64,000 bases of DNA from a virus. Below are positions 1 through 56,243 of the stretch, in pieces. Where the stretch lies: positions 203,119 to 267,118 of the IMG/VR virus record IMGVR_UViG_3300030329_006583. The stretch is one strand, 5' to 3'. Position 1 is the stretch's first letter, and each line of letters begins with the position of its first letter. The notes beneath the pieces are model-generated. The model did no database searches and was not told where the DNA came from. It was given only the letters and a program-made list of their open reading frames with translations. The position numbers and the translations under genes were made by a program.

Positions 1-436
1 TTTTGCCTGACTCAGCACCGGTACGCATACCCAATGATTCATCCTCTTTATCATCATATCCCTGGTGGCCTTCTTCCATATCGTCCTCTGCCAGGTTTTC
101 TTCAACCAATTGGCGAATTCGTTGGCGTAAAGCGGCCTGCTTATTTAATTTCGCTTTTTCTTCTTTTACTATTTGGCGCAGCTGCCTCCTACCCAAGGCT
201 CGGCCTCGGCGGCGACGAGACTCATGTTTTTCTCTTTCATGTTCCAGCTCTTCTTCGTGAGCGCGCTCCATCTCTTCCCGATCATCCTTAATGTCTTTCT
301 CAAGATTATCAATATGATCCTTGTCATCATCAATGTTTTTACGAAGATTATCCAGCTCATCACTGATGCTATCCTCGGCAAGGCGCCGAACTTCTTCCTT
401 TACGATTTTTCTCAATTGTCTCTTTGTGATTCTCAT
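1..436 (-). CDS. Tagged coiled-coil protein, C-terminus beyond left edge
   Basis: First 145 codons of a gene that runs off the left edge. It opens with MRITKRQLRKIVKEEVRRL, the helix shared by about two dozen proteins of this window. Residues 25-80 are a very charged coiled coil rich in D, E, K and R. Two further helix copies follow at about residues 83-93 (RRQLRQIVKEE) and 104-117 (RQRIRQLVEENLAE). The ATG overlaps the TGA of the upstream gene (ATGA), so translation is probably coupled. No enzyme domain is visible; an internal virion protein is only a guess. Confidence 0.8.
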   Translation of the reverse strand, partial: MRITKRQLRKIVKEEVRRLAEDSISDELDNLRKNIDDDKDHIDNLEKDIKDDREEMERAHEEELEHEREKHESRRRRGRALGRRQLRQIVKEEKAKLNKQAALRQRIRQLVEENLAEDDMEEGHQGYDDKEDESLGMRTGAESGK

Positions 437-726
437 CCTCTCATTCTCCTTGCCATTCCCAGCTGTTGTCCCACATTTTGCGCATCAACAGTATCCCCTT
501 GATCCAAATCCTGTTGGCGCTGTTGTGTTAATTTCTTAACTTGATCCGCCGAGGCTTGTTCCTCGTCGACATCATCTCCACTTAATGAAGTATCCATTCC
601 CATGTCACCCACGGCAAGAAAACCTTCATCATCATCACTTTTCTCCTGGGGGGCTGTATAACCCACAACCTGTTCCCGCAGAATCTCCCTTATTACATTT
701 CGCAATCTGTACTCTGTAACTCTCAT
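433..726 (-). CDS. Small tagged protein, acidic middle
   Basis: 97-residue protein starting with the shared helix (MRVTEYRLRNVIREILREQ), then an Asp/Glu-rich linker (residues 28-60) and a Gln-rich end. It overlaps both neighbours by ATGA junctions, so it belongs to one translationally coupled series. The tag ends in ILRE, a possible [L/I]-x-E cleavage site. I do not recognise a domain behind the tag. Confidence 0.75.
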   Translation of the reverse strand: MRVTEYRLRNVIREILREQVVGYTAPQEKSDDDEGFLAVGDMGMDTSLSGDDVDEEQASADQVKKLTQQRQQDLDQGDTVDAQNVGQQLGMARRMRG

Positions 727-1016
727 GCAGTTGTCACCCTACCTATTAACATCATACTGTCACCCTCCGTATCGCCACCTATAATTACGGAGCGTATCTT
801 TTGGCACAATCCCTTTACCCATTCTTTCAAACCCAATCGTTTTGTGGGTACCGGAATTTGCATACATTGTTTGGTATAGGCTTTCATAATAAAACGGGCG
901 GCCAAACGAGAACCATATTTTTTAGCAATTACATGAACAATTTGTTGGGTTTTTGGGTTTAACTCAACAAACATCTCACGTAATTCTGACCTGGTTGGCA
1001 ATTGCCTGTTTTTCAT
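723..1016 (-). CDS. Small basic hypothetical protein
   Basis: 97 residues from the ATG that follows the upstream TAA by one base (MKNRQLPTRSELREMF); a start 18 bases further upstream is possible but lies inside the previous gene. The sequence is basic, with a helix at residues 8-30 and a KKYGSRLAARFIMKAYTKQ stretch. It overlaps the downstream gene as ATGA. It has no clear tag, although SELREMFVELN is faintly similar. Function unknown. Confidence 0.65.
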   Translation of the reverse strand: MKNRQLPTRSELREMFVELNPKTQQIVHVIAKKYGSRLAARFIMKAYTKQCMQIPVPTKRLGLKEWVKGLCQKIRSVIIGGDTEGDSMMLIGRVTTA

Positions 1017-1017
1017 T

Positions 1018-1269
1018 TTATTCACCGTAATCACTTATCAACTCGCTGGCATTTTGTTTGCGGGCCCTATCTGCTGCGGCTTGTAAAAAATCAGCCATAG
1101 TAATACCAGCTAACGCCGGTGCTTGTTCCACCGAGATGTCATCGCGTACTAGTCGAATGGCCTCATCTAAATACATGTGGAAAATATCGGTAACATGATC
1201 CCGAGCTGCCTCAGTGTTAAATTGTTCATGAATTATTTTTTGAAGTTGTTTACGAGTAATTTTCATCAT
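1018..1269 (-). CDS. Small tagged protein
   Basis: 83-residue protein with the shared helix MKITRKQLQKIIHEQFNTE at its start. Two ATGs are adjacent; GAGG lies 5 and 8 bases upstream of them, and the second gives the canonical MKIT start. The remainder is helical (residues 25-78) with no recognised domain. It is the first gene after a 167-base gap that holds a terminator-like hairpin. Confidence 0.75.
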   Translation of the reverse strand: MMKITRKQLQKIIHEQFNTEAARDHVTDIFHMYLDEAIRLVRDDISVEQAPALAGITMADFLQAAADRARKQNASELISDYGE

Positions 1270-1394
1270 TTTAACCTCAGTTTTTCACGCTACATGTGAC
1301 CGGCTAAAACGATATTCAGGTATGCCAGTCTCATTTTATTTTAACGTGGGCGCAGACTCACTATCCCACCGGTTTAATACCACCAATTTAAATA

Positions 1395-1420
1395 TAACAA
1401 AAGGTGACATTAATGCCACC
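1395..1420 (-). terminator. Hairpin followed by a T-rich tail
   Basis: On the minus strand the near-palindrome GGTGGCATTAATGTCACC (1403-1420) is followed by TTTTGTTAT. It lies between the small membrane protein gene ending at 1437 and the tagged gene starting at 1269. The remaining gap to 1270 holds nothing else I recognise. The stem is short and the T-run interrupted, so the call is moderate. Confidence 0.45.
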
Positions 1421-1610: not shown

Positions 1611-2441
1611 TTACGCCGGCTTACCAAACCCATCTTCACTTGCATTAACAATGTGGTGATTGAGTTCATAGGCATGATTTAATATTTCATCCGCATATCT
1701 CTCTATGCGGTTCACCAAAGATACGGGAACACCGCGTTCAAATAATCCGGTTTTCCCCAATCTCTCTACCACCGCATCTGTTACATCATTGACCCGACGT
1801 GAATGTAACATATCGGATTCTAAATTTTCCTTTAATAAACCCTTTATGACACTTCGCAATAAGGATTCATTTTGACTATCTTCTACAACCTCCAATATAG
1901 CCCTCCAGTGACTTGGGCTAATACCGGAAGGTATTCCACCACTTGCAGATTGTAAAGCCATGAGTGCATCCCCGTATTTCTTTATTTGCCGTGGACTGGG
2001 ATTGCTGAGAAGGTTGTGCAACATATCTGCCAATTTTACCTTTAGCGATGCCGAATCTCCCAATAAGGACAATACATAATCCTGATACGGCACATTCTTT
2101 TCATGGGTCAATTGACGTACCACACGTAATGCCTCCCGCCCGGATTGCACATCCCCGAATGAAGCGGTGATCATTGAGCTCAGATCCTCTGAGGATTTTA
2201 TATTCCCTAATTCAATTGCATCTTCGAGGGTATCATGTAAAAGAGCAATTGCGCATAGTGTTTGATCCTCTGGGTAGTATTTTTCTATTATCTTAGCAAC
2301 GGCCATGGGATGCTCAATATAGGGTTCCCCACTGCGCCTAGTTTGTCCTAGGTGTGCTAGCTGTGCCGTTGCCATGGCATCATCAACATCGGCGCTAGCC
2401 ATACCACAAATTTCACTAATATATTGGCGCAATAGTTTCAT
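1611..2441 (-). CDS. Tagged HD-domain (p)ppGpp hydrolase-like protein
   Basis: 276 residues. After a tag (MKLLRQYISEICG) comes an HD domain of the RelA/SpoT hydrolase type: the RxSGEPYxEHP block (H44), HD at 69-70 (ALLHDTLED) and KLADMLHNL (D139) are the expected metal ligands. No synthetase domain follows, so it would be a small alarmone hydrolase. A second tag-like helix (ESLLRSVIKGLLKENLE, ~192-208) separates the HD domain from a 65-residue unknown tail. The start overlaps the upstream stop (ATGA). Substrate is inferred from family resemblance; other nucleotide substrates are possible. Confidence 0.75.
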   Translation of the reverse strand: MKLLRQYISEICGMASADVDDAMATAQLAHLGQTRRSGEPYIEHPMAVAKIIEKYYPEDQTLCAIALLHDTLEDAIELGNIKSSEDLSSMITASFGDVQSGREALRVVRQLTHEKNVPYQDYVLSLLGDSASLKVKLADMLHNLLSNPSPRQIKKYGDALMALQSASGGIPSGISPSHWRAILEVVEDSQNESLLRSVIKGLLKENLESDMLHSRRVNDVTDAVVERLGKTGLFERGVPVSLVNRIERYADEILNHAYELNHHIVNASEDGFGKPA

Positions 2442-3463
2442 CCTTCAATCTCCGGTATACCTGTTATCCTGTGACCGGGTCGGACCCCATTCCTTTTAAA
2501 CCAACCGCGGTTCATCTCCAATGCGCATCGGGCAGGGCCATTCGAATAAGTATGTTCCTCCGTGAAGGGTTCCATGTCCTCAATGTTTAAAATATACCCA
2601 TCATCATCCGTATACGCAATAGACAAGGGGAGAGGTGTGTTCCTCATCCAGAAAGATCTTTGATTAGAATCTGGAAAAACAAACAGCATCCCGCTATCTT
2701 CCCCCATCCCGCGACGGAACATTAGGCCCTGTTGACGAGTGGCAGGGGTTGAAGCAATCTCAGTATCGACCTGTATGCCATTTACCATCACCCCCTCAGA
2801 CAATGTTGTAGTTGTTTTGGTTGCGTACCTGACCTCACCCTCATAGATGAACTCATCAACCTGATTAAACCCCAACCCCTGCGCTTCTCCCAATATCTCA
2901 ACTTCAGCCATGCACTCATTTCGAGCACCACCCACCAAATCAGCGCCATTCCACTTTGGTAATTCATCTTCTAAATCGGGAACCCAAAAACCATAGTCTT
3001 CAAGCTCGTCAAACAGAAGCTCGCTAACACCAATCGCTTCTACGTCTTCTTCTTCCAGCTCCTGGATATCTCGGATGTCTTTATCAATCATGTACTTAAC
3101 AATCTCTACAATCGATGATCGATCAAAACACACACTTGAATCCATCACGTCTCGAAAGAAACCGTAGCCCTTATCGAAGAAAGTTGATTTTGATAGCAAT
3201 TCATCGTATGTCTCTTCATCCCAATCCAACTTTTCAAAGTAAAAGTCTTTCAAGGCAGACTCTGATATCATACCGAGCGTGTCTTCACCGTTATAAAGAA
3301 ATAGCACACGGGAATAATTCTCTGCTGCCTCACGAAGCATATCACCGATATCAAAAGGAGTGTTGCTTTCGTACTCAGGCTGGATATCTACTACGACAAG
3401 ACTGCCTTTCGATCCCTGCTCTTGCTCTAGCAATACCCTTATGTATTCGCGGAGTAGTTTCAT
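2438..3463 (-). CDS. Tagged isochorismatase-like / DUF192 fusion
   Basis: 341 residues in three parts. Residues 1-15 are the tag MKLLREYIRVLLEQE. Residues ~20-205 resemble a cysteine hydrolase of the isochorismatase fold (VVVDIQ with D26, and GGARNECMAEV with C184). Residues ~225-335 are a DUF192 domain (QQGLMFRRGM, GMLFVFP, SFWMRNTPLPLSIAY). DUF192 has no agreed activity. The middle assignment is less certain than the DUF192 one. ATGA overlap with the next gene. Confidence 0.65.
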   Translation of the reverse strand: MKLLREYIRVLLEQEQGSKGSLVVVDIQPEYESNTPFDIGDMLREAAENYSRVLFLYNGEDTLGMISESALKDFYFEKLDWDEETYDELLSKSTFFDKGYGFFRDVMDSSVCFDRSSIVEIVKYMIDKDIRDIQELEEEDVEAIGVSELLFDELEDYGFWVPDLEDELPKWNGADLVGGARNECMAEVEILGEAQGLGFNQVDEFIYEGEVRYATKTTTTLSEGVMVNGIQVDTEIASTPATRQQGLMFRRGMGEDSGMLFVFPDSNQRSFWMRNTPLPLSIAYTDDDGYILNIEDMEPFTEEHTYSNGPARCALEMNRGWFKRNGVRPGHRITGIPEIEG

Positions 3464-3930: not shown

Positions 3931-4284
3931 TCACCATGGCCCGTGTTGACCCGTCTTCAAACAGTTAACCACCGTTTCCTCGGCAGTATATTCCCGTCGG
4001 ATTTCGGGCTGGAACATGTCATAATAAATATCACGTGGAATTCCTTCTGGCTTGGTATAACTTGACTGCCAGTCAAACACAGTGTCACCTTTCTCCACCC
4101 ACGCATGATCCACAGTTTCCCCAGAGAACTTATCAGTGACCTGCCCATGCACCACCTTAAACTTGGAAAGATCGCTGAATTCTTCATCTGTGGTACCCTG
4201 GGCCATCTTTATTGCGTGTGGATAGCATTGGCCGATTGCTTTTTCCACTAGTAAGGCTCTTATGTACTCACGCAATAGATTCAC
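3931..4284 (-). CDS. Tagged small protein with possible Cys-His-Asp triad
   Basis: 117 residues starting at a GTG that overlaps the upstream TGA (GTGA). Tag MNLLREYIRALLVE, then QCYPHAIKMA (C20), VVHGQV and DHAWVEKGDTVFDW (H60, D71). The order Cys ... His-Ala-Trp ... Asp recalls transglutaminase-like or papain-like folds, but the domain is very short and I infer the triad only from spacing. Function unproven. Confidence 0.6.
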   Translation of the reverse strand: MNLLREYIRALLVEKAIGQCYPHAIKMAQGTTDEEFSDLSKFKVVHGQVTDKFSGETVDHAWVEKGDTVFDWQSSYTKPEGIPRDIYYDMFQPEIRREYTAEETVVNCLKTGQHGPW

Positions 4285-4889
4285 TTTATCACCCCGGCCG
4301 AAGCAAAATCTACAATGTTAATCCCCAGCCCTTCGGTTTCTTCAGACACAACAGACATCAAGTTATCCGGAACCATTATCTCCTTAATTGACCAATTGTC
4401 AACCAAGGCTTCGTTAGCAGAACCAGGAATAAAATCTTTGGAATCAAGAACAAGAAAACCGGGTGACAACAACTCATCCATGTCATGATAGGTACCTTTG
4501 TTTACCCCAGAAGACTGTGCCCTATGTTCTCCTCCTACCCTAGCCGCCGTGGACCCATATCCCGTATTTAGATCCTCATTTGATAATAGGGTTATCCTTC
4601 CATCGATAACCAACCCGACCATAGAAAGCTCATAGCTTTCTGGGTTTATCTGCCCTGGCAAATAAGCTCGAACACTCAATTCATTTCTGGAACCTACGTT
4701 AATTGTTTGCATTAATTTTTGTGGCCTAACCCAATGAACTGTTACTAGCGAGTCAAGAAACTGTTGGTCAGCATTCTTTGCGTAATACTGCTTTATTTCC
4801 CGACCGGTTTTTAGAGCTAACAAATCACGCTCATCTGCTTCGGCAGTTTCGACCAACAATTCCCTTATATATTCACGTAGTAATTTCAT
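4281..4889 (-). CDS. Tagged protein of unknown function
   Basis: 202 residues with the clearest form of the tag, MKLLREYIRELLVE, followed by TAEADE; LVE is a good [L/I]-x-E site. The body is mixed alpha/beta with VHWVRPQKLMQT, SMVGLVIDGRITLLSN and a late EALVDNWSIKEIMVPD block. I do not recognise the family. It sits between two other tagged genes and overlaps the one downstream. Confidence 0.7.
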   Translation of the reverse strand: MKLLREYIRELLVETAEADERDLLALKTGREIKQYYAKNADQQFLDSLVTVHWVRPQKLMQTINVGSRNELSVRAYLPGQINPESYELSMVGLVIDGRITLLSNEDLNTGYGSTAARVGGEHRAQSSGVNKGTYHDMDELLSPGFLVLDSKDFIPGSANEALVDNWSIKEIMVPDNLMSVVSEETEGLGINIVDFASAGVIK

Positions 4890-5173
4890 TTCTTGCCCCT
4901 GATCTTAACCCATGTGCCCCACATTAACGGAACAGCTAACCAATGCAAGCATAATAACCATGCTGCAGGAGCACCGGCATAAAAAGATGGATGAACTGTC
5001 TTTCCCAAGAATATGAAGAGAGCGGGAAACCCAACGTCTTCAATAATTTCCCACAACAAGAATATGACAACGAATGCCAGACCGTTCTCTTTGAGAAAGC
5101 CTTTTAATTTCTCAATAGAAAAATGCTCAAATTTATGAACTAGGCGATCTTTTGTCCACTGAAATAACTTCAT
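4886..5173 (-). CDS. Small integral membrane protein
   Basis: 95 residues. A basic amphipathic start (residues 1-28) is followed by two hydrophobic segments, about 31-58 and 66-88, and a KIRGKK end, so two membrane spans with positive ends are likely. It overlaps the next tagged gene. No family recognised. Confidence 0.65.
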   Translation of the reverse strand: MKLFQWTKDRLVHKFEHFSIEKLKGFLKENGLAFVVIFLLWEIIEDVGFPALFIFLGKTVHPSFYAGAPAAWLLCLHWLAVPLMWGTWVKIRGKK

Positions 5174-6021
5174 TAATAATATTTTGCCCCCATAACATTA
5201 ACATCAGGATACTGCTTTTCCATCTTTTCTTTCAGATGGCCTATCGCGGGGGTCATCATCTTCCCAAAGTCAATAATGCTAGCAGGCTTTGCATACATGC
5301 TGAAAAACTTGTCAACAAGCCGGGTCGCTACTTTTTGGCCACCTTTATCTCCCCGGGTTTTCATATAATCAATATACCAGTAATCCGGCCCTCGTTGGTG
5401 ATAATCTAAAAACCCGATGATGCAAACGTCGCTCACCCCTGGGATTATCTCATCTAGCACTGGTTTTTTAAGTTTTCTTCTGCCACCCTTTGTACGTTTT
5501 CGCCACCTTTCAATTTCTGCGAAATAGTGATCATGAGGCCTCGGGGGATCTGTGACAGAAGAATCACATAAGGCCAAACGTTTCACATTGCCAGAACTGT
5601 GATATTGGAGCGGAGAATCAACTTCACGGAACTCAATTCCCTCTGTCAAAATTCCCCTGACAACTTGACGTACAGACTCTTTCGCATGGGGTGTATCGTT
5701 AATCGTTTTAAGCTTGGCCATGTCAACACCAGAAATGCCGGTCAGATCAGCAATCAGATCATCTATGGTATAACCATCACCTCGCTCAAACCGAACCACC
5801 AGATCGGCCATCTGCTTTCCTTCAGGTGCAGGACGAAGCGAAGCATCCTGGCGCACCGTTATCACATCCGGCAGTCCCCGAATCTTTGTGAGAATGTGTT
5901 CCATGGTAGGCTTATCAGGAGAATCAATGCTGACTCGCACTGTTACGGAGAGATCATCTAACACTGGTTCAGCAGCCGTTTGTTCCAATAAGCCCCTTAT
6001 GTACTCGCGTAGTAGTTTCAT
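5173..6021 (-). CDS. Tagged protein with GNAT-like C-terminal domain
   Basis: 282 residues from the ATG in the TAATG junction with the upstream gene; this start gives MKLLREYIRGLLEQ, as in its siblings. Residues ~20-105 form an alpha/beta domain, and a second tag-like helix (ESVRQVVRGILTEG) lies at ~112-125. The last ~95 residues (DVCIIGFLDYH, RGDKGGQKVATRLVDKFF) have the look of a GNAT acetyltransferase acyl-CoA loop, but key motifs are weak. Function is tentative. Confidence 0.55.
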   Translation of the reverse strand: MKLLREYIRGLLEQTAAEPVLDDLSVTVRVSIDSPDKPTMEHILTKIRGLPDVITVRQDASLRPAPEGKQMADLVVRFERGDGYTIDDLIADLTGISGVDMAKLKTINDTPHAKESVRQVVRGILTEGIEFREVDSPLQYHSSGNVKRLALCDSSVTDPPRPHDHYFAEIERWRKRTKGGRRKLKKPVLDEIIPGVSDVCIIGFLDYHQRGPDYWYIDYMKTRGDKGGQKVATRLVDKFFSMYAKPASIIDFGKMMTPAIGHLKEKMEKQYPDVNVMGAKYY

Positions 6022-7100
6022 TACCATTCCCCCGCTTGTTTGGCCCTGGTACGCATGTGTTCCGGAGTCAATGTGTTAGGAAATGTCTTAACTACATCGA
6101 CTGCACCCTTCGATAAAAAGATCGCCTGCTGTGGTTCATTTTTGTGAATCAAGCCGGTACTGCGATCATAAAAGGCGTCCATACCGATCCCTCTCAATAT
6201 GGCGTTCCACTTTCCAATAGGGGCAGCTGCCTTATCACCGGCACCTGGACTCCCACCTGCTATCATCTTTGTCAATAGCCATATGAGATCAATAGGCCTC
6301 TTTCGGGCTTTCTTTTGTGCCTCTTCATATATGGCAGAATTTCTCATGATCGCCGTTATGGGATTAATTCCTTGGGCCACAGCCTCCTCTACCTTCTGCA
6401 CCTCATCTTCAAATGAGGTACCTGATAAACCAAATCTCTCCACGGTTTCCTGTGTATACAATTGTTTCATCGCATCATATTGCTCTGAAAGTGTGAACTC
6501 AGGTGACGTCACCAAATTTGCTCCTGCGCTGGTTTTTAATATTGAAATGAAAGGTTGTTGTGTAGCAAAAGGCAATCGTTCAGAACCTTTAGGCGAAGTA
6601 AGTTGTTGAACTGTTTTGGGAAAGAGGGGGTAAGCATAAATTCCGGCGGGTGTGTTATAATCAGAGCCGGGGTTGACACCCACCTTATTAATGGCTGTGA
6701 AAGTAATATAATATTCCGGCTTTTCCGATGAATTCCCATCGGCATATGATTGCAATTCATTTTCAAGGGTAGGAAGTTCCACACCTTCTTTATCGGCACG
6801 ACGGGCCTCAGCCAATGTCATTTGTATATACTTGCGCAAGAGCTTCTCATTCATCTTTCCTGTCATCCTCTCCAACATGTCCATGGCCTCTTCCCTGGTT
6901 ACAAAGTAATCACCCTCAATGGTGTAGGGTTTCTCTGAGCCATCAGGTAGAATATAACCTGTACCCACATAAAACCCGTTGGAATTTTGCATCACCTGTA
7001 ATTCTGTGGGACCAAATCCTGGCCGGTGCGGCTTGGGCGACCCTGCCTTTTGAAGTAAAGAATTTCTAAACCACTTAATTTGAAAACCCTTTGGCCACAT
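6021..7100 (-). CDS. Protein with tag at residue 83; possibly two products
   Basis: 359-residue frame. Residues 1-80 form a small domain (GFGPTELQVMQNSNGFYVG, VTREEAMDMLERM). At residue 83 an ATG (6854) with AGGAAAG just upstream begins a perfect tag, MNEKLLRKYIQMTLAEARRAD. The rest contains VGVNPGSDYNTPAGIYAYPL and a C-terminal DLIWLLTKMIAGG block. Either the tag is internal to one protein, or a separate 277-residue tagged protein starts at 6854; the ribosome site favours at least some internal initiation. No enzyme family recognised. Confidence 0.6.
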   Translation of the reverse strand: MWPKGFQIKWFRNSLLQKAGSPKPHRPGFGPTELQVMQNSNGFYVGTGYILPDGSEKPYTIEGDYFVTREEAMDMLERMTGKMNEKLLRKYIQMTLAEARRADKEGVELPTLENELQSYADGNSSEKPEYYITFTAINKVGVNPGSDYNTPAGIYAYPLFPKTVQQLTSPKGSERLPFATQQPFISILKTSAGANLVTSPEFTLSEQYDAMKQLYTQETVERFGLSGTSFEDEVQKVEEAVAQGINPITAIMRNSAIYEEAQKKARKRPIDLIWLLTKMIAGGSPGAGDKAAAPIGKWNAILRGIGMDAFYDRSTGLIHKNEPQQAIFLSKGAVDVVKTFPNTLTPEHMRTRAKQAGEW

Positions 7101-7113: not shown

Positions 7114-7449
7114 TTACGCAGAAAAAGACGTTCCACACCCACATGTGGAAGTAGCATTGGGGTTACTAAATTCAAACCCGCTTCCGTTCAGCCCACCTGA
7201 CCAATCCAGAACGGTGCCAATCAAAAATAAGTAGCTCTTTTTGTCTACATATAACTTAATTCCGCTCTCAGACGTGTATACCTTATCACCTTCTTGAATC
7301 TCAGTTTCCAATTCCAAGTTATAAGACAAACCTGCACAACCCCCACCTTGTACACCCACCCTTATTCCGTTAGCAGTAGAATTTTCACGTTCCATGATCT
7401 TACGAATCTGTGTTTCTGCATCCGGTGTTATCTCAATGGTTGGTTTCAT
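7114..7449 (-). CDS. iscA: A-type iron-sulfur carrier protein (IscA/ErpA family)
   Basis: 111 residues from the ATG preceded by GGAGAG; a longer frame exists but lies over iscU. It has the family pattern of three cysteines: GGGCAGLSY (C38) and TCGCGTSF (C103, C105). Such proteins accept an Fe-S cluster from IscU and hand it to target proteins. It overlaps the end of iscU, so the two are co-translated. Full length for the family. Confidence 0.92.
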   Translation of the reverse strand: MKPTIEITPDAETQIRKIMERENSTANGIRVGVQGGGCAGLSYNLELETEIQEGDKVYTSESGIKLYVDKKSYLFLIGTVLDWSGGLNGSGFEFSNPNATSTCGCGTSFSA

Positions 7450-7822
7450 TCTTTTCTCTCCAATCTTTGATTGCAGCCTTGATGGCATCCTCCGCCAACA
7501 CGGAACAATGAATCTTGATGGGTGGCAAATTCAATTCCTCGACAATCTCCACGTTTCTTATCTTTTCGGCATTGTCAACTGTCATTCCCTTTACCCACTC
7601 GGTCGCCAGTGAACTAGCGGCAATCGCACTCCCACAACCAAAAGTCTTGAATTTGGCATCTTCAACAATGCCTTCATCATTTACCTTGATTTGCAATTTC
7701 ATAACATCACCACATTCAGGAGCACCGACCAAACCGGTGCCCACTGTAGTGTCTGTTTTATCCATTGATCCAACGTTCCTGGGATTTTTGTAATGTTCAA
7801 GCACTTTATCTGAGTATGCCAT
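7433..7822 (-). CDS. iscU: Iron-sulfur cluster scaffold IscU
   Basis: 129 residues, nearly the size of the bacterial protein. All functional residues are present: C37 and D39 (APECGD), C63 (FGCGSAIA), and H105-C106 in the LPPIKIHCS block bound by HscA. It would assemble [2Fe-2S] clusters using sulfur from a host cysteine desulfurase; no iscS, hscA or fdx is nearby. It is co-transcribed with iscA. DnaK and DnaJ homologues elsewhere in the window could stand in for HscA/HscB, but that is speculation. Confidence 0.95.
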   Translation of the reverse strand: MAYSDKVLEHYKNPRNVGSMDKTDTTVGTGLVGAPECGDVMKLQIKVNDEGIVEDAKFKTFGCGSAIAASSLATEWVKGMTVDNAEKIRNVEIVEELNLPPIKIHCSVLAEDAIKAAIKDWREKNETNH

Positions 7823-8055: not shown

Positions 8056-8184
8056 TCACGTGTGCCCGATCAATTCTTCCTCTTCGGGATCCAACTCCGC
8101 TTGTTCCATACCTGACCCGAATGGTGCAGCTTTCTTCAATTCTTCTTTAATAATTTGCCTAAGTTGTCTCTTCGTAATTTTCAT
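8056..8184 (-). CDS. 42-residue tagged peptide ending at TGA
   Basis: Starts with ATG 8 bases after GGAG and encodes MKITKRQLRQIIKEELKK, then an acidic stretch ending LIGHT and a TGA followed by C (ACG TGA CTG). The 77 codons after the TGA are open in the same frame and look conserved. Possible explanations are a nonsense mutation, an assembly error, or read-through at a leaky UGA-C. TGA is a normal stop elsewhere in the window, so a changed genetic code is unlikely. Confidence 0.6.
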   Translation of the reverse strand: MKITKRQLRQIIKEELKKAAPFGSGMEQAELDPEEEELIGHT

Positions 8185-37945: not shown

Positions 37946-37974
37946 ATTATACCATATCTCATGTAATTTTGCAT
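37946..37974 (-). promoter_or_regulatory. Promoter ATGCAA-17-TATAAT
   Basis: On the minus strand ATGCAA (37969-37974) stands 17 bases before TATAAT (37946-37951), about 24 bases before the ATG at 37922. It would drive the ligase, nuclease and adenylyltransferase group. The -35 overlaps the stop region of the gene ending at 37974. Confidence 0.55.
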
Positions 37975-39069: not shown

Positions 39070-39087
39070 TTGCTTCTCCTATTAATA

Positions 39088-41146: not shown

Positions 41147-41154
41147 CTCAACTC

Positions 41155-42725: not shown

Positions 42726-42754
42726 TCTTTTCTTCTGCTCCACTTTGGGGAAAT

Positions 42755-44288: not shown

Positions 44289-44897
44289 CTATATCCCGCC
44301 TTCAGCTGCGATTGGGCTAGCCCCTACACCCATCGGATCCACTAAATCCTGAGGGATGTCTAGACTAATATCGTACCTGAGATCTAAAATATCCAACATC
44401 GCGGCTGCCTGCTCGGGCCCGTATTTGTCGGTGATATAATCTTCTGCTTTTTTTACAATTAACGCCTTCATATCCAGAAGTGAATCATAATTCTTGGCTA
44501 ACCTTGCTACGTCACCTGCAAATGTTTCCATATCAATTACCGGAATTTCCTCCTGTTCGTAAAGCACACGAACTATTGAGTATTTGTTGGCCTCATTTTG
44601 TGCCTGACCTTTGGCGGCATTGATAGCATCTGTCTCAAAATCCACAAAAAGGGCATTAAGTTCATCATCAACTGATTTACCCAAAGGTTCCACTTCATCC
44701 ACCCCTGGTTCTATTTGGGCCTCTTCCGCCTCAGCTTCAACTTCCGCTTCTGGGCCTTCTTCATCACCAGGTGTTTCTTCCGCATCTTCCTCAGTGGCTT
44801 CTTCAGTATCAGCCATATCGGCTTCTTCTTCTTGTTCCACAAGGAGCCTGAACTCTTCGTTTATTAGCTTTTTTAAATACTTTTTTGTCAATTTCAT
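44289..44897 (-). CDS. Tagged acidic protein
   Basis: 202 residues. Extended tag MKLTKKYLKKLINEEF followed by RLLVEQEEEAD, giving two possible [L/I]-x-E sites. A long Glu/Ala/Asp linker (~25-75) leads to a helical domain (KSVDDELNALFVDFETDAIN, FAGDVARLAKNYDSLLDM). Overlaps the SOD-like gene upstream as ATGA. Likely an internal virion protein. Confidence 0.7.
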   Translation of the reverse strand: MKLTKKYLKKLINEEFRLLVEQEEEADMADTEEATEEDAEETPGDEEGPEAEVEAEAEEAQIEPGVDEVEPLGKSVDDELNALFVDFETDAINAAKGQAQNEANKYSIVRVLYEQEEIPVIDMETFAGDVARLAKNYDSLLDMKALIVKKAEDYITDKYGPEQAAAMLDILDLRYDISLDIPQDLVDPMGVGASPIAAEGGI

Positions 44898-45592
44898 TTG
44901 ATTGCCTTCCCGATTTTTTCAGCCTTTTTAACCCTTTTCTCAATTACATCCCAATCTAATTCTTTCATCATAGCAAAAACATACGTCTTTCTGTCATTCA
45001 AATAATCACGATAATAAGAATTTTCCGAACAATCTAAAACAACAATTGGAAACGATGCAAAAGGAACATTAATATTATGCAGATCTACACACACATTAAT
45101 ATAACGTTGAAGAAAGGTATTATAGACAGTGACTGCCCACCCATTTCTAGATGACATAGCGCATGCAATAAAATCCTTTTGCCACGCATCAAAAGAACCA
45201 AAATCCCTCTCCAACCTTATAAAAGTAAGAGAATCCATTACTAATTGACTTTTGAGATCACTAATATTTTCAAAAAACAAAGCATTCAAAAATGAAGCAT
45301 TAAGATTGTAGGTTTCATCAATCTTCAAAGAACGAAATTCTGAATTATTGGCATTTGCATCTTCACGATTAACAACATCCAATTCAATACTAATACGATT
45401 AAGGGTATCTATGTATCCTTCAAGCAATTCAAAATGAGCACGTTTATTTTTTTCACTTAAAAATTCTGTAGCTAAATTATATCGTTTGGCTTGGGTAACA
45501 TATGCCTCCTTAATGGTGGCGTGTCCTTCTTTTTCTTCCAACCCCAACGTTTCCCTGATCGTTCTTTTTATTTCATCATCAGATATGCTCAT
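44894..45592 (-). CDS. Superoxide-dismutase-fold protein lacking metal ligands
   Basis: 232 residues from MSISDDEIKRTIRETLGLEE, a tag-like start. The body follows Fe/Mn-SOD order: RAHFELLEGYIDTLN, NASFLNALFFENI, DFGSFDAWQKDF, NGWAVTVYNTF, VVLDCSENSYYRDYLNDRKTY and LDWDVIEKRV. At the metal positions the first His block is changed, NHxFYW has become NASFLN, and DxWEHAYY has become DCSENSYY, so of the four ligands only the Asp is kept. It should be catalytically dead and may be structural. Confidence 0.65.
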   Translation of the reverse strand: MSISDDEIKRTIRETLGLEEKEGHATIKEAYVTQAKRYNLATEFLSEKNKRAHFELLEGYIDTLNRISIELDVVNREDANANNSEFRSLKIDETYNLNASFLNALFFENISDLKSQLVMDSLTFIRLERDFGSFDAWQKDFIACAMSSRNGWAVTVYNTFLQRYINVCVDLHNINVPFASFPIVVLDCSENSYYRDYLNDRKTYVFAMMKELDWDVIEKRVKKAEKIGKAIK

Positions 45593-45593
45593 T

Positions 45594-46019
45594 TTATTTA
45601 ACCTCATATTCTTTTTCAAATTCTTCTTGATCCACCACAAACACCTCTTCATCAGGATCATCGGGTATTAATTCTGTTTGTATTTTATCTAAATTAATTA
45701 ATTCATCTTCACCTAATATTGCCGCAATTTTTTTATCACTGATCAAAGTATCCTCTTGATCGGGTGGGGGATCAAAACGGGGTTCATCAGGCAATCTTAA
45801 AACAATGTCAATTTTACCGGTCTCCGGATCTTCCAAAACATCATCCACAGTGTATTCATATTGAGAATCTTTATGCCTCACCTTTAAATCACGCGTTATA
45901 AGAATATTACCGTCGTCATCTATCACGTCAGATTCCCAAAGGGCTTCGTTTAAACGATCCTCGTAATAATTACGCAATAAATCAATTATAACATTTTCTG
46001 ATAAAATTTTATTTTTCAT
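45594..46019 (-). CDS. Acidic protein with tag-like N-terminus
   Basis: 141 residues. N-terminal helix VIIDLLRNYYEDRLNEALWE is a tag variant ending in LWE. The body is acidic with TVDDVLEDPETGKIDIVLRL and many Asp/Pro. It starts inside the last codons of the upstream gene (GGATGAAAAATAA). Function unknown. Confidence 0.62.
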   Translation of the reverse strand: MKNKILSENVIIDLLRNYYEDRLNEALWESDVIDDDGNILITRDLKVRHKDSQYEYTVDDVLEDPETGKIDIVLRLPDEPRFDPPPDQEDTLISDKKIAAILGEDELINLDKIQTELIPDDPDEEVFVVDQEEFEKEYEVK

Positions 46020-47124
46020 CCTTTAGTCCCGCCATTTTTAACCAACGACTATGCATGGTGTTATTATTGGAAATTAATGATTCTCTTAACACCCCTTTAA
46101 TCTCTGTGTAAGTATAAAATACCCCTTCAGAAAATACTGGTTTTCCAATAATCTGATTTAGTGCCCCGCCTAGGGCGCGCGTTTGGCTCTTCTTTTTAGA
46201 TTTAGCCTGATCCATTGCACCTTTGATATCTTTAAGGTTTTGACGAGTTAATGATATGCCGTCTCCCCCTGGGGGCGCTTCGGTAGCACCAGGTGAAGTT
46301 TCTGTGGCAATGTCTTTCATTTCATTGTCCAAACCGGCATCAGTAACAATGGCATCAATTGCTTGTACTGGATCGTCGTCGCCAGGCTGCGCGGCGTCAT
46401 CTAAATCTGTGGCTGCACTTTTCAAAAATGAATCTAATTCATCAGGTGTTAAAGTAAGCATTTCCTCCACAAACTGTTGCTGTTGTAATCCAAAACCAAT
46501 ATCACGGGTGGAGCCCAATCCCAGGCTACCTAACATGTTGGAAAAACCTTGTCCCAACCCACCGAAGACCCCTTTCGGTGCTTTCAGTTGTGCAATAATA
46601 GCCTTTTCAAAATCAGTCCTACTAGGGATTCCTGCAATATCTGCCGAGTATAGATCCAATAAGCCACCCAATGTTTTGTCACGATCTTCTTCATTGGTTG
46701 CAATTTTGGCACCAAGATCCCCTAATGCGCCTTGCACAGTTTGAAAGGCATTCGCAATCGAACCCTGTAAAATCTGCACATTTGCAAATAACTTCGAAAG
46801 TTGCTTCATGGGATCACCCAACAGGTTGGAAAGACTTATCCCCGTCTTTAATCGGTTTGCCGCAACTTCTTTTTTGGCGTTATTAAGAGCATCACGAAGA
46901 TTACCCATTTTTTGGGGGACCTTACCTAATATATCATCGAGGCTCTTCGTGGCCTTATCTGCAGCTGCATTCAAATCTGACACCACTGCATCAGCCTGAT
47001 TTGTTTGTTCCCATAACAATCCGGTCAATCGATGATTCTTAAATGATTCTTCAATCAACGCCTCTTGATCTGTTTGGTATTTTTCACATTTTAGCCATGC
47101 GTTTTCAATTAATCTTAAATACAT
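46009..47124 (-). CDS. Large protein with tag elements and RWxxLAGL-type end
   Basis: 371 residues from the second ATG, which follows AGGGA. Tag-like helix near the start (EALIEESFKNHRLTGLLWEQ) and another near the end (YTEIKGVLRESLISN), then HSRWLKMAGLKDEK. The middle is Ala/Leu/Asp-rich and helical with a Gly-rich stretch (GVFGGLGQGFSNMLGSLGLG). The end matches that of the ParB-like protein. Structural or packaged protein suspected. Confidence 0.65.
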   Translation of the reverse strand: MYLRLIENAWLKCEKYQTDQEALIEESFKNHRLTGLLWEQTNQADAVVSDLNAAADKATKSLDDILGKVPQKMGNLRDALNNAKKEVAANRLKTGISLSNLLGDPMKQLSKLFANVQILQGSIANAFQTVQGALGDLGAKIATNEEDRDKTLGGLLDLYSADIAGIPSRTDFEKAIIAQLKAPKGVFGGLGQGFSNMLGSLGLGSTRDIGFGLQQQQFVEEMLTLTPDELDSFLKSAATDLDDAAQPGDDDPVQAIDAIVTDAGLDNEMKDIATETSPGATEAPPGGDGISLTRQNLKDIKGAMDQAKSKKKSQTRALGGALNQIIGKPVFSEGVFYTYTEIKGVLRESLISNNNTMHSRWLKMAGLKDEK

Positions 47125-47162
47125 CACCATTCCCTGGGTAGATCACTATAATACATATTACG

Positions 47163-47687
47163 CTAAAGAGGAAGGTGATCGGTCTTTATGCCGGAATTAA
47201 TTAACAACTCCACCCCCGCTGTATCGCGATATTCATTTGCATAATACACCTCATTAATGCCGGCATTTATCATTGCTTTGGCACACATACGACACGGAGA
47301 CAAAGTAACATACATTTTTTTCTTTTTGTGCGTATTATAATCCATTTTTAGTAATGCATTAATTTCGGCATGAATCATTCCGGAATGACCGGGCTCAGTT
47401 GACTCTACCTCGTTTGGCCCGCCGGCATAATTCCCATTATACCCCACCGCTAAAACCTGAGTATTGTCACCGGAAACTACAATGGCACCCACTTGATTTC
47501 TAGGATCGTAAGAACGTCGACTGATGGAATTTGCAAATTCCATCCAAATTTCATCCCACGGAGGCCGGTGTTTAGTGCGCCGAGATGGCATTACTTTTTC
47601 TACCCCTTCCTTTAATTGCGCAGTTACCTCTGCCCTTAATTCCTCCGGAACGTATTGTTCTATTATTTCAAATATCTTTCCCAACAT
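47163..47687 (-). CDS. dCMP deaminase
   Basis: 174 residues. Zinc motifs are HAEINALL and SPCRMCAKAM, with VGAIVV and GYNGNYAGGPNEVE typical of the deoxycytidylate deaminase family. A 40-residue N-terminal helical extension precedes the domain. It makes dUMP, the substrate of the ThyX at 58976. It overlaps the thymidine kinase gene by 20 bases. Confidence 0.92.
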   Translation of the reverse strand: MLGKIFEIIEQYVPEELRAEVTAQLKEGVEKVMPSRRTKHRPPWDEIWMEFANSISRRSYDPRNQVGAIVVSGDNTQVLAVGYNGNYAGGPNEVESTEPGHSGMIHAEINALLKMDYNTHKKKKMYVTLSPCRMCAKAMINAGINEVYYANEYRDTAGVELLINSGIKTDHLPL

Positions 47688-48243
47688 TATCTTCCTTTTG
47701 ATTTATAAAGGGGTAATGTTCCCAACACCTAGGTTCATAATATTCAGCACCACCCACTGTAATCTCATCCAATCCCTTCACTTTGTGGTGAGTATAATAA
47801 GCATCGCGCCCAGTGCGAGGGCACACAGCGGGACAAATTTCAATTTTGGTAGCCCAAGGCATCATATCCCTCACCTCCTCAAAAACTTTCCCAGCAGCTG
47901 ATAATTGTAAAGATGACACAACAACTGTCACCCCGGTTTGAAAAATCTTCAAAAGTGCGATAGCTGAGCCATCAATCATGAACGCTTCATCCACCCCTAC
48001 CACATCAGGTTTGTATTCGGTGACCGCATCCCAGATTTCCTTCCCGTTAGAAACCAACGTGGCAGGAAACGTAGTACCTGAATGTGTGCTTATCTCTTTT
48101 TCAGTGTATCTATCGTCCATCCTTGGTTTAAATGCCATTACGCGTAAATTTTGATATGTAAATCTCTCAAGTGACGCCAACATTCGGGTGGTTTTAGAAC
48201 CAAACATAGGCCCTGTAAAAATAATAAAACTAGGATCTCTCAA
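47668..48243 (-). CDS. tdk: Thymidine kinase (TK1 type)
   Basis: 191 residues from a TTG 6-7 bases after GGAGGAG. P-loop TGPMFGSKTTRML, kinase-2 DVVGVDEAFMI and a lasso/zinc region (ICPAVCPRTGRDAYY) mark type II thymidine kinase. It phosphorylates salvaged thymidine. It overlaps the dCMP deaminase gene, forming a pyrimidine pair. Confidence 0.9.
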   Translation of the reverse strand: MRDPSFIIFTGPMFGSKTTRMLASLERFTYQNLRVMAFKPRMDDRYTEKEISTHSGTTFPATLVSNGKEIWDAVTEYKPDVVGVDEAFMIDGSAIALLKIFQTGVTVVVSSLQLSAAGKVFEEVRDMMPWATKIEICPAVCPRTGRDAYYTHHKVKGLDEITVGGAEYYEPRCWEHYPFINQKEDNVGKDI

Positions 48244-49254
48244 TTAATTCTCCTCCAATCCCCACCACGCAAATGTTTTTTCCAAGCCGGCGGCCAAATT
48301 TGTCTGGGGTGTGTATCCCAATTTTTCTTGTGCCAACGATGTATCAGCCAGGGTCTTCATTACATCACCTGGGCGCCAAGGGGCATGTTTAATTTTAATA
48401 TCATTGAACTTATTTTTAAAAATCTCCAGAATTTCATTATTTGAACATGATTCACCATACCCTACATTAAACACATTACCGCATACGTCATCTTTTGTAG
48501 TCGCGGCCAAAATATTTGCATTGACCACATCATCAACAAAAACCATATCCCTCACTTGAGTACCGTCACCATCACTACGAAGGGGGAGATTATTTTTTGT
48601 AGCATGACACCACGCGCCAATTGCAGTAGAATAAGGGCTGTCGCCGTATTGGTGTGGCCCATAAACATTGAAATACCTCAAAGACACAATTTTCATCCCA
48701 TAAAGTTTATGAAACAACTCAGCAAAATATTCTCCGCACAACTTTTGTAACGCATAAGGTGATTGAGGATCTTTCTCCATTGTTTCCGGCGTAGGAAAAA
48801 TCTGGGCATCTCCATATACCGATGATGAACTTGAAAATATTACACGCCGAGTATTGCCAACTGACACCTGAAATAAGGCTATGGTTTTAAATAAATTTGT
48901 TTCTGTGGTGGCCACTGGATCATCCACGGAATGTTCCACCCGGGGAAGGGCCGCCATATGAAAAACATAATCGTATATTCCTGATTTTACCCTATTTAAC
49001 ACATTATCATGCGCAAAATCGCCGGTTATAACCAAAACTTGTGTGGGGTTGATTTCGTGTTTATCTTCATGCTCTTCCTCATAAAGATGTAATAAATCTG
49101 CATGGACTGTGCGAGGTTTAACGCTGTCCAAAAAATCTAAATATCCGTTGGACATATCATCAACTACGTCCACAGACCAACCTTTTTTATGCAGCCCAAG
49201 AACTAAGTTGCTGCCAATAAAACCACACCCACCTGTCACCAAACATTTAACCAT
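48244..49254 (-). CDS. NAD-dependent sugar-nucleotide epimerase
   Basis: 336 residues from the ATG after AGGGG. Extended SDR: TGGCGFIGSN nucleotide motif, FHMAALPRV, SSSSSVYGD and the catalytic SPYALQK (YxxxK), then RYFNVYGPHQ. UDP-hexose or UDP-HexNAc 4-epimerase is the likely class. In this operon it could prepare the donor sugar for the glycosyltransferase at 50258. Confidence 0.88.
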   Translation of the reverse strand: MVKCLVTGGCGFIGSNLVLGLHKKGWSVDVVDDMSNGYLDFLDSVKPRTVHADLLHLYEEEHEDKHEINPTQVLVITGDFAHDNVLNRVKSGIYDYVFHMAALPRVEHSVDDPVATTETNLFKTIALFQVSVGNTRRVIFSSSSSVYGDAQIFPTPETMEKDPQSPYALQKLCGEYFAELFHKLYGMKIVSLRYFNVYGPHQYGDSPYSTAIGAWCHATKNNLPLRSDGDGTQVRDMVFVDDVVNANILAATTKDDVCGNVFNVGYGESCSNNEILEIFKNKFNDIKIKHAPWRPGDVMKTLADTSLAQEKLGYTPQTNLAAGLEKTFAWWGLEEN

Positions 49255-55100: not shown

Positions 55101-55758
55101 CATAACATAAGGGACCGCCCAAACATGCGGTAGAGATCATCAGGTGACCTCCCTTCGCCGCTTCTTTTAGCATCTTATAATCAACTCGAGGAAACCGATA
55201 AAACCCCTCCATGTACCCACGAGACACCAGGTGAAACAAGCGTTGAAGACCTTCCGACGTTTTTGGAAGCACCACCAGGTGGTGGCGGCGCTTAATTGGA
55301 TCATAAAACTTACCTGATTTAGTTTCCTCCTCGTTTTCAATTGTTAGGCTAGCTGCATCTGTAGAAATATCAAGGGTTTCATCATCACCATCTAATTTAG
55401 CAGTGAGGGGGGTAACTAATTTTTCCCGTTGGGCACGCAATACAGCTAGTGCATCAGTGTCACCTTTCTTTGCCGCTTTTTGAATTTCGTAATCAAGCTT
55501 CCATGCCTCAAGATCCGGATGAACATACATTTCACAACCAGGTACAAACTTAAAATTAGCACCGGCTTTATTCAATTTTTCCGCATGCAAATAAGCATGT
55601 GCAAAACTATTCATATGGCCATGGTTCGTCAAACACCACGCATCCATTCCATTTCCCCTCACAAAATCAATGTGTTCCTGAGGGTAATCCAACCCATCAA
55701 AAGTGGAAAATCCATCATGGGCATGCAGGCTTACAAAACGATTCGGTTCTCTACTCAT
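52156..55758 (-). CDS. dnaE: DNA polymerase III alpha subunit (C-family replicase)
   Basis: 1200 residues after AAGAGG. PHP domain at the N-terminus (FVSLHAHDGFSTFDG, CLTNHGHMNSFA), palm with GPGRGSGAGSLVNYV and YPDIDTDIS (catalytic Asp pair), TLTSIYRPGPL, fingers, HhH region and a C-terminal OB-like part (GSSGKVSKMFMWGW). The PHP domain has an insertion of about 60 residues rich in charged amino acids. It is presumably the phage replicase. Its promoter overlaps a strong hairpin at 55789-55818. Confidence 0.96.
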   Translation of the reverse strand: MSREPNRFVSLHAHDGFSTFDGLDYPQEHIDFVRGNGMDAWCLTNHGHMNSFAHAYLHAEKLNKAGANFKFVPGCEMYVHPDLEAWKLDYEIQKAAKKGDTDALAVLRAQREKLVTPLTAKLDGDDETLDISTDAASLTIENEEETKSGKFYDPIKRRHHLVVLPKTSEGLQRLFHLVSRGYMEGFYRFPRVDYKMLKEAAKGGHLMISTACLGGPLCYEVFKHLQEVEFDNLHASLLDDKNLFEKVLLGVGNAYEQLEHSVGRGNVKLELQFNQLPAQHLVNRAIMKFADNAGLQEQLVVTTDSHYARPEHWKERELYKKLGWLNYRDFDPSKLPQSKEDLKCELYPKNANQVWESYQDTTKQYDFYDDNIIHGAIERTHDIVYEEIGDIHPDQSPKLPSYVIPEGLTADKALLEACKEGLIKRGLADEPEYIDRLKMELAVIKERKFSAYFLTMKAILDVARDRMLIGPGRGSGAGSLVNYVLYITDVDPIKYNLLFERFLSKYRLEYPDIDTDISNRDLLIDLLKDNFGGENIVPISNYNTFKLKTLVKDISRFYGIPFDEANAATRTVEQDVRKAVTKHGEDKNLFVLKYEDAIKHSESFKKFIDKYPEVANPMGVLFKQNKALGRHAGGVIVSENVPQRMPLILAKGETQTPWVEGTNFKHLEEFGWIKFDLLGLETLRIVERAIELILQRHCGVDKPAFADVRKWYEENMAPSVIDFDDPQVYEYVYHSGRWGGIFQLTNRGAQRLFMKAKPRNLIDIATLTSIYRPGPLAANVHKLYIKNKLEPENIDYQHPLIKEVLEPTYGMIIFQEQVMKLANVVAGFPKDECDKVRKAIMKRSISGGAAAIKKANELKSSFVEGAVKNGVPNSVASDLYEKILYFAGYGFNMSHAVSYAMDSYFCAWLMTYYEEEWLCAYLESMSSNADKRAKAFSEVRALGYDIIPIDVNYATDSWTILDGKKFMPSFLSCKGVGSSAIDEIVEKRPYRNIREMLWDEEGIWRHSKFNKRALENLIKIGAFESMDVVGDNKEFSSYKHMHHVLIDHYNDLRKRTKSDPERGINNYRQAILEEERCDEWGAKERAEMSTSLLGSFDASLLIPEQIKQKFAEKEIAAIDEYHGKDLYWFVVKAAHSKLTKNKRPYLLLEITGSSGKVSKMFMWGWDGKTDVPAYSICVAEINQNEFGMSTNFGKFKQLLT

Positions 55759-55780
55759 TCAAACTTACCTCTTCCGGAAA

Positions 55781-55818
55781 ATAAAAAAGCACTCAATTGT
55801 ATTGTAACAATTGAGTGC
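55781..55818 (-). terminator. Perfect 12-bp hairpin with T-run before dnaE
   Basis: GCACTCAATTGT/ACAATTGAGTGC (12 bp, 6-base loop) followed on the minus strand by TTTTTTATTTT: the form of an intrinsic terminator for the gene ending at 55848. It also overlaps the -10 of a good promoter, so it may instead act as an operator or attenuator for dnaE. Confidence 0.7.
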
Positions 55819-55829
55819 CAAATTTACAC
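55801..55829 (-). promoter_or_regulatory. Promoter GTGTAA-17-TACAAT overlapping the hairpin
   Basis: GTGTAA (55824-55829) and TACAAT (55801-55806) on the minus strand are 17 bases apart. The flank CGTGTAAATTT-GGCA is the same as at the UV-damage endonuclease promoter. The -10 lies in the hairpin loop, and transcription would start inside the 3' arm of the hairpin, about 40 bases before dnaE. Confidence 0.55.
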
Positions 55830-55847
55830 GAATATTGATAAATTAAT

Positions 55848-56243
55848 CTATTTTTTTGTAGAAGTCCCAACAATATATTGCGCAATCTCTTCTTTGATTA
55901 TTTGACTCATGCGTTCTGGACTAATGCCTTCGCCAATTTTCACGCCGGTTCCTTCGGAAGATGCTTTATCAAGCGCCTTAGTGCCCAATGTTTCAGCATA
56001 ATTAAGCATTTTTTGAAAAGCAGGCACATCGTGTTGTGCCATGGCGATCAGTACCTGAAGGATTATGGCCATTTCATCATTAAATTTTACAGGAATATTG
56101 GCCACTAAGTCAGCGGCATCTGTTTTAAGGGCCTTTGTAAATTCTGCGTTTGTCAAACGAGCCTGATCATCTTGTTCCAATAAAAAACGTAATGCCAACT
56201 CTTCTTTTATGATTTTTCGCAATAATCTATTGTTTAGGTGCAT
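55848..56243 (-). CDS. Protein tagged at both ends
   Basis: 131 residues after CAGGAG. N-terminal tag MHLNNRLLRKIIKEELAL with RFLLEQDD; C-terminal tag SPERMSQIIKEEIAQYIVG. Between them is a helical domain (FNDEMAIILQVLIAMAQHDV). It ends upstream of the hairpin that precedes dnaE. Function unknown. Confidence 0.7.
   Translation of the reverse strand: MHLNNRLLRKIIKEELALRFLLEQDDQARLTNAEFTKALKTDAADLVANIPVKFNDEMAIILQVLIAMAQHDVPAFQKMLNYAETLGTKALDKASSEGTGVKIGEGISPERMSQIIKEEIAQYIVGTSTKK

Follow-up and report, generated by a model that had tools for sequence, protein, structure and literature searches.

Helix tags with head-protease-type sites and a scaffold-type tail mark candidate capsid cargo proteins in a large environmental phage

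The DNA analysed here (the window, 64,000 nucleotides) comprises bases 203119-267118 of the 267,118-base virus record IMGVR_UViG_3300030329_006583 of IMG/VR; the rest of the record was read as separate stretches. Nearly all genes of the window lie on the minus strand. Otherwise unrelated proteins encoded in it carry one of two related N-terminal amphipathic-helix tags, class I (MKITKRQLRRIIKEE type) and class II (MKLLREYIRELLVE type). The tags are probably capsid-targeting propeptides and would represent a much expanded variant of the capsid-targeting-sequence system of phage T4, with packaging, cleavage and ejection of the tagged proteins as predicted steps. The features of the window, with open reading frames abbreviated as ORFs, are as follows.

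392-436, minus strand: N-terminal tag MRITKRQLRKIVKEE; ORF 1-436, which runs off the window start
670-726, minus strand: tag MRVTEYRLRNVIREILREQ with L-R-E-Q at its end; gene 433-726
1222-1269, minus strand: tag MMKITRKQLQKIIHEQ; gene 1018-1269
2409-2441, minus strand: class II tag MKLLRQYISEI; gene 1611-2441, Pfam HD_4
near residue 193 of gene 1611-2441, minus strand: second tag-like copy ESLLRSVIKGLLKEN
3422-3463, minus strand: class II tag MKLLREYIRVLLEQ; gene 2438-3463 with a VDIQPEYE domain, then DUF192, and LSE-G between them
4243-4284, minus strand: class II tag NLLREYIRALLVE, GTG start; gene 3931-4284
4848-4889, minus strand: class II tag MKLLREYIRELLVE; gene 4281-4889
5980-6027, minus strand: class II tag MVMKLLREYIRGLLEQ; gene 5173-6027, with an internal copy ESVRQVVRGILTEG near residue 117
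6021-6854, minus strand: class II tag MNEKLLRKYIQMTLAEA if the start is the ATG at 6854; longest ORF 6021-7100
8056-8184, minus strand: ORF of 42 residues beginning MKITKRQLRQIIKEE
18175-18378, minus strand: gene with tag MKHLRRFVRESVRHE near its start
30820-31152, minus strand: gene with N-terminal VERMQVLSGI (variant of the second label described below) and class I helix IRRIIREEIAAYLREQ
33679-33738, minus strand: class II tag MKAITQEKLVRKYIRNILHE; gene 32515-33738
34502-35107, minus strand: nucleotidyltransferase-like gene (weak Pfam match below the cut-off) with C-terminal tag MLRTYVRQIIMG
35419-35478, minus strand: tag KITKNRLRKIIGEVLLREQ, GTG start; gene 35125-35478
36586-36636, minus strand: class II tag MNDRLLRKWVQVLLMES; gene 35482-36636
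36633-37922, minus strand: gene with C-terminal tag ESLLRNYVREFVGGMG
38196-38255, minus strand: class II tag MEIMDNIRLRHMIRQILQES; gene 37974-38255
39911-41233, minus strand: gene that has LLEQ internally and a weak class II tag VLENYLKRVLFED, the seed that fails leave-one-out
42678-42743, minus strand: N-terminal tag KKLTPAQLRYLILQE; gene 41637-42743
41640-41672, minus strand: C-terminal scaffold-type label ERWHRLAGLND; gene 41637-42743, with ILDGHHRW and ParB-like by eye
44832-44897, minus strand: tag MKLTKKYLKKLINEEFRLLVEQ; gene 44289-44897
44894-45592, minus strand: superoxide dismutase (SOD)-like protein with N-terminal helix at residues 5-15, linker with IKE-A, then the SOD fold
46009-47130, minus strand: gene with C-terminal label SRWLKMAGLKDEK and LLWEQ near the N-terminus
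56172-56243, minus strand: tag MHLNNRLLRKIIKEELALRFLLEQ; gene 55848-56243

The tags were scored with two position-specific matrices, built from 14 class I and 13 class II seeds that all came from the same genome. In this genome-wide profile search, which an earlier note on this DNA had proposed, 38 of the 382 ORFs scored, 18 of them in the window. When each seed was left out in turn, class I seeds reached at least 15.5 bits in 14/14 cases and class II seeds at least 11.3 bits in 12/13. The sole failure among the 27 was the gene at 39911 (2.7 bits), whose class II tag is doubtful. By chance, a shuffled proteome yields about 0.75 class I matches of more than 12 bits, and the low scorers outside the seeds, 189374 and 170187, may be false positives. 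The common helix named by the earlier note is thus real, and the pattern in which it was written proved too strict: it matched 12 of 386 genome ORFs, with three window ORFs of at least 40 residues and none in each of 200 shuffled proteomes. The window has one more strict match, its fourth, in the ORF of only 42 residues starting at 8184, which the note had listed as a tagged protein at 8056. Two other entries of that list also required correction, as the tag at 6021 is internal to the longest ORF and the tag at 44894 is degenerate and lies behind the ATG at 45592. For 6021, a Shine-Dalgarno-like AGGAAAG upstream of the ATG at 6854 indicates that this is likely the true start. The C-terminal copies (34502, 36633), the internal copies and the second, scaffold-tail label had been overlooked.

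Identical tag peptides are encoded by differing codons (272 synonymous of 924 codon pairs), and hence the peptide is conserved and not the DNA. A more general motif, hydrophobic-x-x-hydrophobic-[LIVF]-x-E near the start, was enriched 2.6-fold genome-wide (42/5595 versus 223/77774 positions, p 2e-7) and 4-fold at the N-termini of the window (18/1425 versus 58/18567 internal positions). It was enriched 3-fold in a T4 slice (8/69 proteins, including IPII, IPIII, gp68 and gp24) and 2.9-fold in a cultured relative, Flavobacterium phage immuto (p 3e-6). T7 and slices of phiKZ and SPO1 had no N-terminal enrichment (5/2640 versus 114/39600 internal positions, ratio 0.66).

Internal tags were considered as proof of polyproteins and rejected, because many internal copies are preceded by E-x-x-M, which can be a Shine-Dalgarno sequence read through in translation. 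The ORFs concerned may therefore be in-frame fused genes with internal starts. On the 306-kb contig NHDW01000006.1, most class II tags are MKHLRQYIRQIL or nearly so, that of the VDIQPEYE protein included, whereas the VDIQPEYE relative in the present genome carries MKLLREYIRVLL. The uniformity within that contig suggests that tags go with the genome, and so with a common receptor, rather than with the gene; the one gene pair is a hint in this direction.

The spread of the tags was investigated with the exact class I DNA pattern, which matched at least 118 viral stretches in IMG/VR, up to five of them on a single 7.6-kb contig. Bacterial and archaeal genomes, 257 billion bases in total, contained only 7 matching stretches; the 5 contigs concerned are all labelled as metagenome-assembled. 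Two of these cellular assemblies were tested and both encode the phage protease described below. One of the 5 contigs is 101,404 bases long, and G041, an IMG/VR contig of equal size, had no protease match, so that the protease probably lies on another contig of that assembly. NHDW01000006.1 (L321, L324, L325) and PBIO01000025.1 (L323) look viral though filed as bacterial metagenome-assembled genomes; both have dense tags, and the protease is in the same assembly. With tblastn against cultured phages, the tag found only one uncultured record. In the 118 loci listed, 333 matches were N-terminal, 53 internal and 6 C-terminal, the N-terminal count being inflated since the loci were fetched by the tag.

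A short N-terminal peptide is here common to otherwise unrelated proteins: 116 dissimilar proteins, chosen by the tag, align as MKITKxQLKxIIKEE with nothing in common beyond it, and M1, L8, I12 and E14 are each at least 90% conserved. None of the 116 matched Pfam at 0.001; four PHROG families each matched one or two of them, and no function is described for any of these families. For the window, 20 proteins were compared with Pfam (15 of the 18 tagged ones plus 44894, 36633, 34502, 46009 and 20827) and three passed the curated cut-off, with HD_4, DUF192 and Sod_Fe_C. The set of enzymes foreseen by the earlier note is accordingly right only in part, with three matching window proteins and no match among the 116 sampled relatives. 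Recognisable enzymes are few: HD_4, DUF192 and a SOD-like fold with a lost His.

A head block of the T4 type with a T4-like gene order is encoded elsewhere in the record, outside the window. Its genes are given here in record coordinates; the terminase and the scaffold were named by eye and position.

48602: terminase (by eye and position)
46593-48548: portal (phrog_213, E 9.1e-75)
45139-45747: head maturation protease, gp21-like (phrog_207, E 6.9e-50; PDB 5jbl, T4 gp21, E 9.7e-16)
44716 and 44362: two small tagged genes, within 1-3 ORFs of the protease
40545-42233: scaffold-like gene (by eye and position)
38553-40505: major capsid protein (phrog_138, E 1.2e-71; T4 gp23 match in PDB)

The search for a prohead protease gene, also proposed in the earlier note, thus yielded a gp21-like protease. 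In its alignment to T4 gp21, GISSRG stands opposite GVASRG of gp21. The genome that carries the tags therefore has a homologous gp21-type prohead protease, as expected of a T4-type capsid-targeting system. Among the tag contigs longer than 100 kb, 13/15 have phrog_207, a rate that stands without a base rate for large viral contigs, and the capsid gene is in the same 13. One of the two remaining contigs has no portal match and the other has one at the contig end. In the capsid loci of relatives with a recognisable protease ORF, 24/27 have a class I-like helix (above 9 bits) starting a gene 1-3 ORFs away.

The site at which such a protease might cut was first read from the capsid protein. Its N-terminus has L-[RK]-E at one place in 80/80 relatives (74 by filter, and 6 loci missed by the filter and read directly), which is the presumed cut. 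The capsid ORFs of the tag contigs, obtained from 14/15 loci, all have it. In 60 distinct N-termini the site is followed by A (24), Q (24), S (7), V (3), R (1) or T (1). The capsid site of the present genome is E60, near the end of the T4 propeptide by alignment, and the alignment with mature gp23 begins at residue 72. T4 gp23 loses 65 residues (PMC5694885). In two related viruses (L314/L319 and L315/L318) the major capsid gene is present in two adjacent copies.

A similar site accompanies most of the tags. The motif [LIVF]xE[QASTGN] lies within 36 residues of the tag start in 28/38 tagged ORFs, compared with 71/344 untagged ORFs (p 8e-11) and 921/4280 random internal windows. By this motif, slightly wider than [LI]-x-E, most tagged ORFs have the protease-type site at or after the tag that a T4-type capsid-targeting system would have. 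Of 178 tags outside the fetch pattern, 168 have Glu at position 14, 5 have Lys and 1 has Asp. When Glu-14 was swapped in the class I DNA pattern, IMG/VR gave no stretches with Asp and 2 with Lys (a pattern two bases shorter), against at least 118 with Glu. In T4 IPIII, targeting involves residues 4 and 7 and processing residues 8 and 10; with Asp at residue 10, processing stops while targeting is unaffected (PMC9026906). By inspection, residues 4, 7, 8 and 10 of T4 MKTYQEFIAEA correspond to tag positions 8, 11, 12 and 14, a shift of four. The tags have the same spacing, with Glu shifted by one in some class II tags. Homology to T4 was not detected, as the class I matrix placed no IP protein among its four best matches on a 50-kb T4 slice; the tags would thus work like the T4 system, and descent is not claimed. 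T4 gp67, which by eye has LIKEEK, was rejected as a class I tag at 1.7 bits. A comparison of P1' co-variation between capsid site and tags was dropped, since P1' varies in the capsid protein.

Further sites stand at domain junctions in three families. In the 51 sequences of the SOD-like family, [LIV]-x-E-[AS] lies between the N-terminal helix and the fold, with [LIV] at P3 in 50/51, Glu in 51/51 and A or S in 49/51. The site Glu is the sole invariant residue before position 88. The structure model of the SOD-like protein (mean pLDDT 89.9) has a helix at residues 5-15, residues ~21-30 with the site Glu at pLDDT 59, and fold helices from residue 47. By this model, the cleavage-type site sits in a predicted disordered linker ahead of the fold. 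In the window protein (44894-45661) DCSEN replaces DxWEH, and it lacks the DxWEH His, a metal ligand of Fe/Mn superoxide dismutases; this His is kept in 44/51 family sequences. With tblastn against cultured phages, the SOD-like protein found one fragment.

For the VDIQPEYE domain, 24 loci gave 16 distinct proteins (none from L276 and L281, which gave no ORF), and the junction was read in 14, the domain lying deep inside in L274 and L275. The N-termini differ between phages, and [LIM]-x-E precedes the domain in 14/14 junctions, a number that stands without a background count. In L273 the domain follows another tagged protein in a fusion, and LLEQ is kept at the internal junction. Similarly, in 3/3 ParB-like relatives (by eye), Glu begins the conserved block ED[KR][YF]PR. 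To judge from the sequences, L273 and the ParB-like family are the cleaner cases of putative internal sites. A structure model of 41637-42743 (pLDDT 34, 3 sequences) was not used.

A second label was recognised at the C-terminus of the scaffold-like protein encoded 5' of the capsid gene, which ends RWxxLAG[IL] in 55/55 distinct cases. The corresponding ends are RWQKLAGI in immuto and RMKKLAGI in Mel-JY01, and no RWxxLAG[IL] was found in the T4 slice. In the tag loci there are 9 C-terminal matches versus 0.35 expected, at least 3 of them scaffold-like by eye. The SOD, VDIQPEYE and ParB-like loci have 9 C-terminal matches, on proteins of 353-836 residues, versus none in 20 shuffles. Close to the SOD-like gene, a large protein ends RWxxLAG or a close variant in 8 loci (within L216-L270). 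In this genome alone the signal is weak, with 5 matches, one of them internal, versus 0.73 expected and a shuffle maximum of 4. The window has the C-terminal label at 41637 and 46009 and the N-terminal variant at 30820. Two immuto proteins begin with RMQxLAGIITES, that is, with the label followed by an I-T-E-S site. Both labels occur on one protein in gene 41637-42743, in one protein of L180 and in one of L295, and the L296 relative of 41637-42743 lacks the C-terminal label. From these sequences it would appear that the scaffold tail has been copied as a second address.

The earlier note had proposed a capsid cargo-targeting system, and this is the reading best supported by sequence, with a T4-type head, a gp21-like protease, the tag layout, the Glu specificity and the LxE sites. 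From these, together with the spread of the tags and the second label, we infer binding, cleavage, packaging and ejection in the following way. The amphipathic helix would bind a common partner in the scaffold core during prohead assembly and so take the tagged protein inside. The gp21-like protease would then cut [LI]-x-E at or just past the tag, and the tag would be lost. The cargo would stay in the head with the DNA and would probably be ejected with it. RWxxLAG[IL], the scaffold-like protein's own C-terminus, may do the same job, whether for other proteins or for those that carry the helix. More tentatively, and with a confidence that falls a little short of even, we propose that a large group of environmental phages loads its heads by two labels, a genome-uniform cleavable N-terminal helix and a grafted scaffold tail. 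Each virion would then hold dozens of cargo proteins, some of them two-domain precursors with protease sites between the domains.

Several results weigh against capsid targeting. The protease was found on only 8/24 contigs with the SOD-like gene and 5/14 with VDIQPEYE. Of the 25 such contigs that lack it, 7 were tested for the portal and none was positive, so that they look like fragments, a view that this result fits and does not prove. In the Mel-JY01 slice the general motif was not enriched (p 0.31). No matching site was seen in 10/38 tagged ORFs. Residue 15 of class I is Glu in 119/178 tags, and Glu never follows the capsid site (60 N-termini) or the SOD site. E14 may therefore not be cut, and the actual cut may be at a downstream L-x-E-Q instead.

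The tagged proteins could also be parts of the prohead core or scaffold that act in assembly only and are later degraded like T4 gp22, gp67 and gp68, with nothing delivered. The small tagged proteins 1-3 ORFs from the protease, here and in the 24/27 loci of relatives, would agree with this, as would the acidic look by eye of some tagged proteins, such as 44289. The genome would then require core proteins of dozens of different kinds, however, and some tagged proteins have folded domains (HD_4, DUF192, SOD-like), which makes a pure core function unlikely. Binding to membranes or partners is common among basic amphipathic helices, and the helix might be an address for another site in the infected cell, such as the membrane, a replication compartment or a polymerase, with Glu being structural. 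Conservation of the helix despite variation of the downstream site would suit such an address. It is improbable, as Glu is preferred over Asp or Lys, sites lie at domain junctions in three families, and the same helix is on small proteins adjoining the head protease.

It is very improbable that the tag binds the core or shell uncut and that LxE is a helix preference. The Glu at class I residue 15 and the 10/38 ORFs without a nearby site speak for it, whereas LxE-[AS] of the SOD-like family sits in the linker, outside the helix, and the site rate of tagged ORFs is far over background. A repeated or mobile DNA element or a gene-calling artefact, suggested by the clustering of tagged genes, their near-identical peptides and some ORFs with two tags and an apparent internal start, can hardly explain tags whose codons differ and which recur on at least 118 viral contig stretches as the only part common to 116 dissimilar proteins.

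Some other genes of the record were noted. Two adjacent, similar tail-sheath-like genes (by eye), of ~1,095 residues each, lie at record 25939-29226 and 29265-32546, and three mutually similar small genes at record 36870, 37372 and 37901. At record 150-177 kb (L003, L004), and also in L322 and L326, many small genes begin with MKVGDLV or MKIGDLV, a common short start on differing small proteins. In the window, DnaK-, GroEL- and IscA/IscU-like genes were recognised by eye, DnaK also by search, at 22912-24807, 27696-29306 and 7114-7822, respectively; none of them is among the 38 tagged ORFs of the matrix scan.

In T4 a handful of proteins are tagged, compared with the 38 scoring ORFs here. The likeness to T4 lies in a short N-terminal propeptide on unrelated proteins, as in IPI, IPII and IPIII, whose targeting sequences are cut by gp21 (PMC9026906, PMC5694885, PMC3012670). 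In addition, both have hydrophobic positions followed by [LI]-x-E, a homologous protease, portal and capsid protein, and diverse, poorly conserved cargo. The present phage differs in the helix sequence, in the C-terminal and internal copies and in the second label from the scaffold tail, and its cutting and packaging are predictions from sequence. In phage P1, the first 30 residues of DarB are enough to bring a reporter into the head, and that work gives no consensus for the Dar N-termini (PMC9024508). The phages phiKZ and SPN3US are similar as jumbo phages whose head protease cuts after Glu and whose heads contain ejected proteins, and the SPN3US paralogs gp53 and gp54 have identical N-terminal 15 residues. 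They differ in an A-x-E motif and in several propeptides of more than 100 residues, and the available text reports no short tag on dozens of unrelated proteins (PMC5694885).

Short terminal peptides also bring cargo into the HK97-fold shells of encapsulins (PMC8346489). In P22, cargo fused to the scaffold protein enters the shell (PMC9962691); that loading is engineered, whereas RWxxLAG[IL] would be a scaffold-tail label of natural origin that accompanies an N-terminal tag and a protease. The polyvalent proteins of phages have several domains, and many are predicted to be packaged and injected; the text available mentions no short tag common to them that includes a protease site (PMC5512222). 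The N-terminal motif of RaK2 (PMC3622015) is a tail-spike motif, unrelated to the tags. In the literature on targeting and head proteolysis we found no published description of the tags or of RWxxLAG[IL] as a label; preprints and most subscription journals were outside this scope, so this is no proof of novelty.

If the proposal is true, the tag lists, by sequence alone, the head-carried proteins of many uncultured phages. The proteins so listed, nearly all of unknown function, would be candidate effectors against host defences in the first minutes of infection. The two short peptides would then also be available for capsid loading, and nature would have a counterpart to engineered loading by scaffold fusion.

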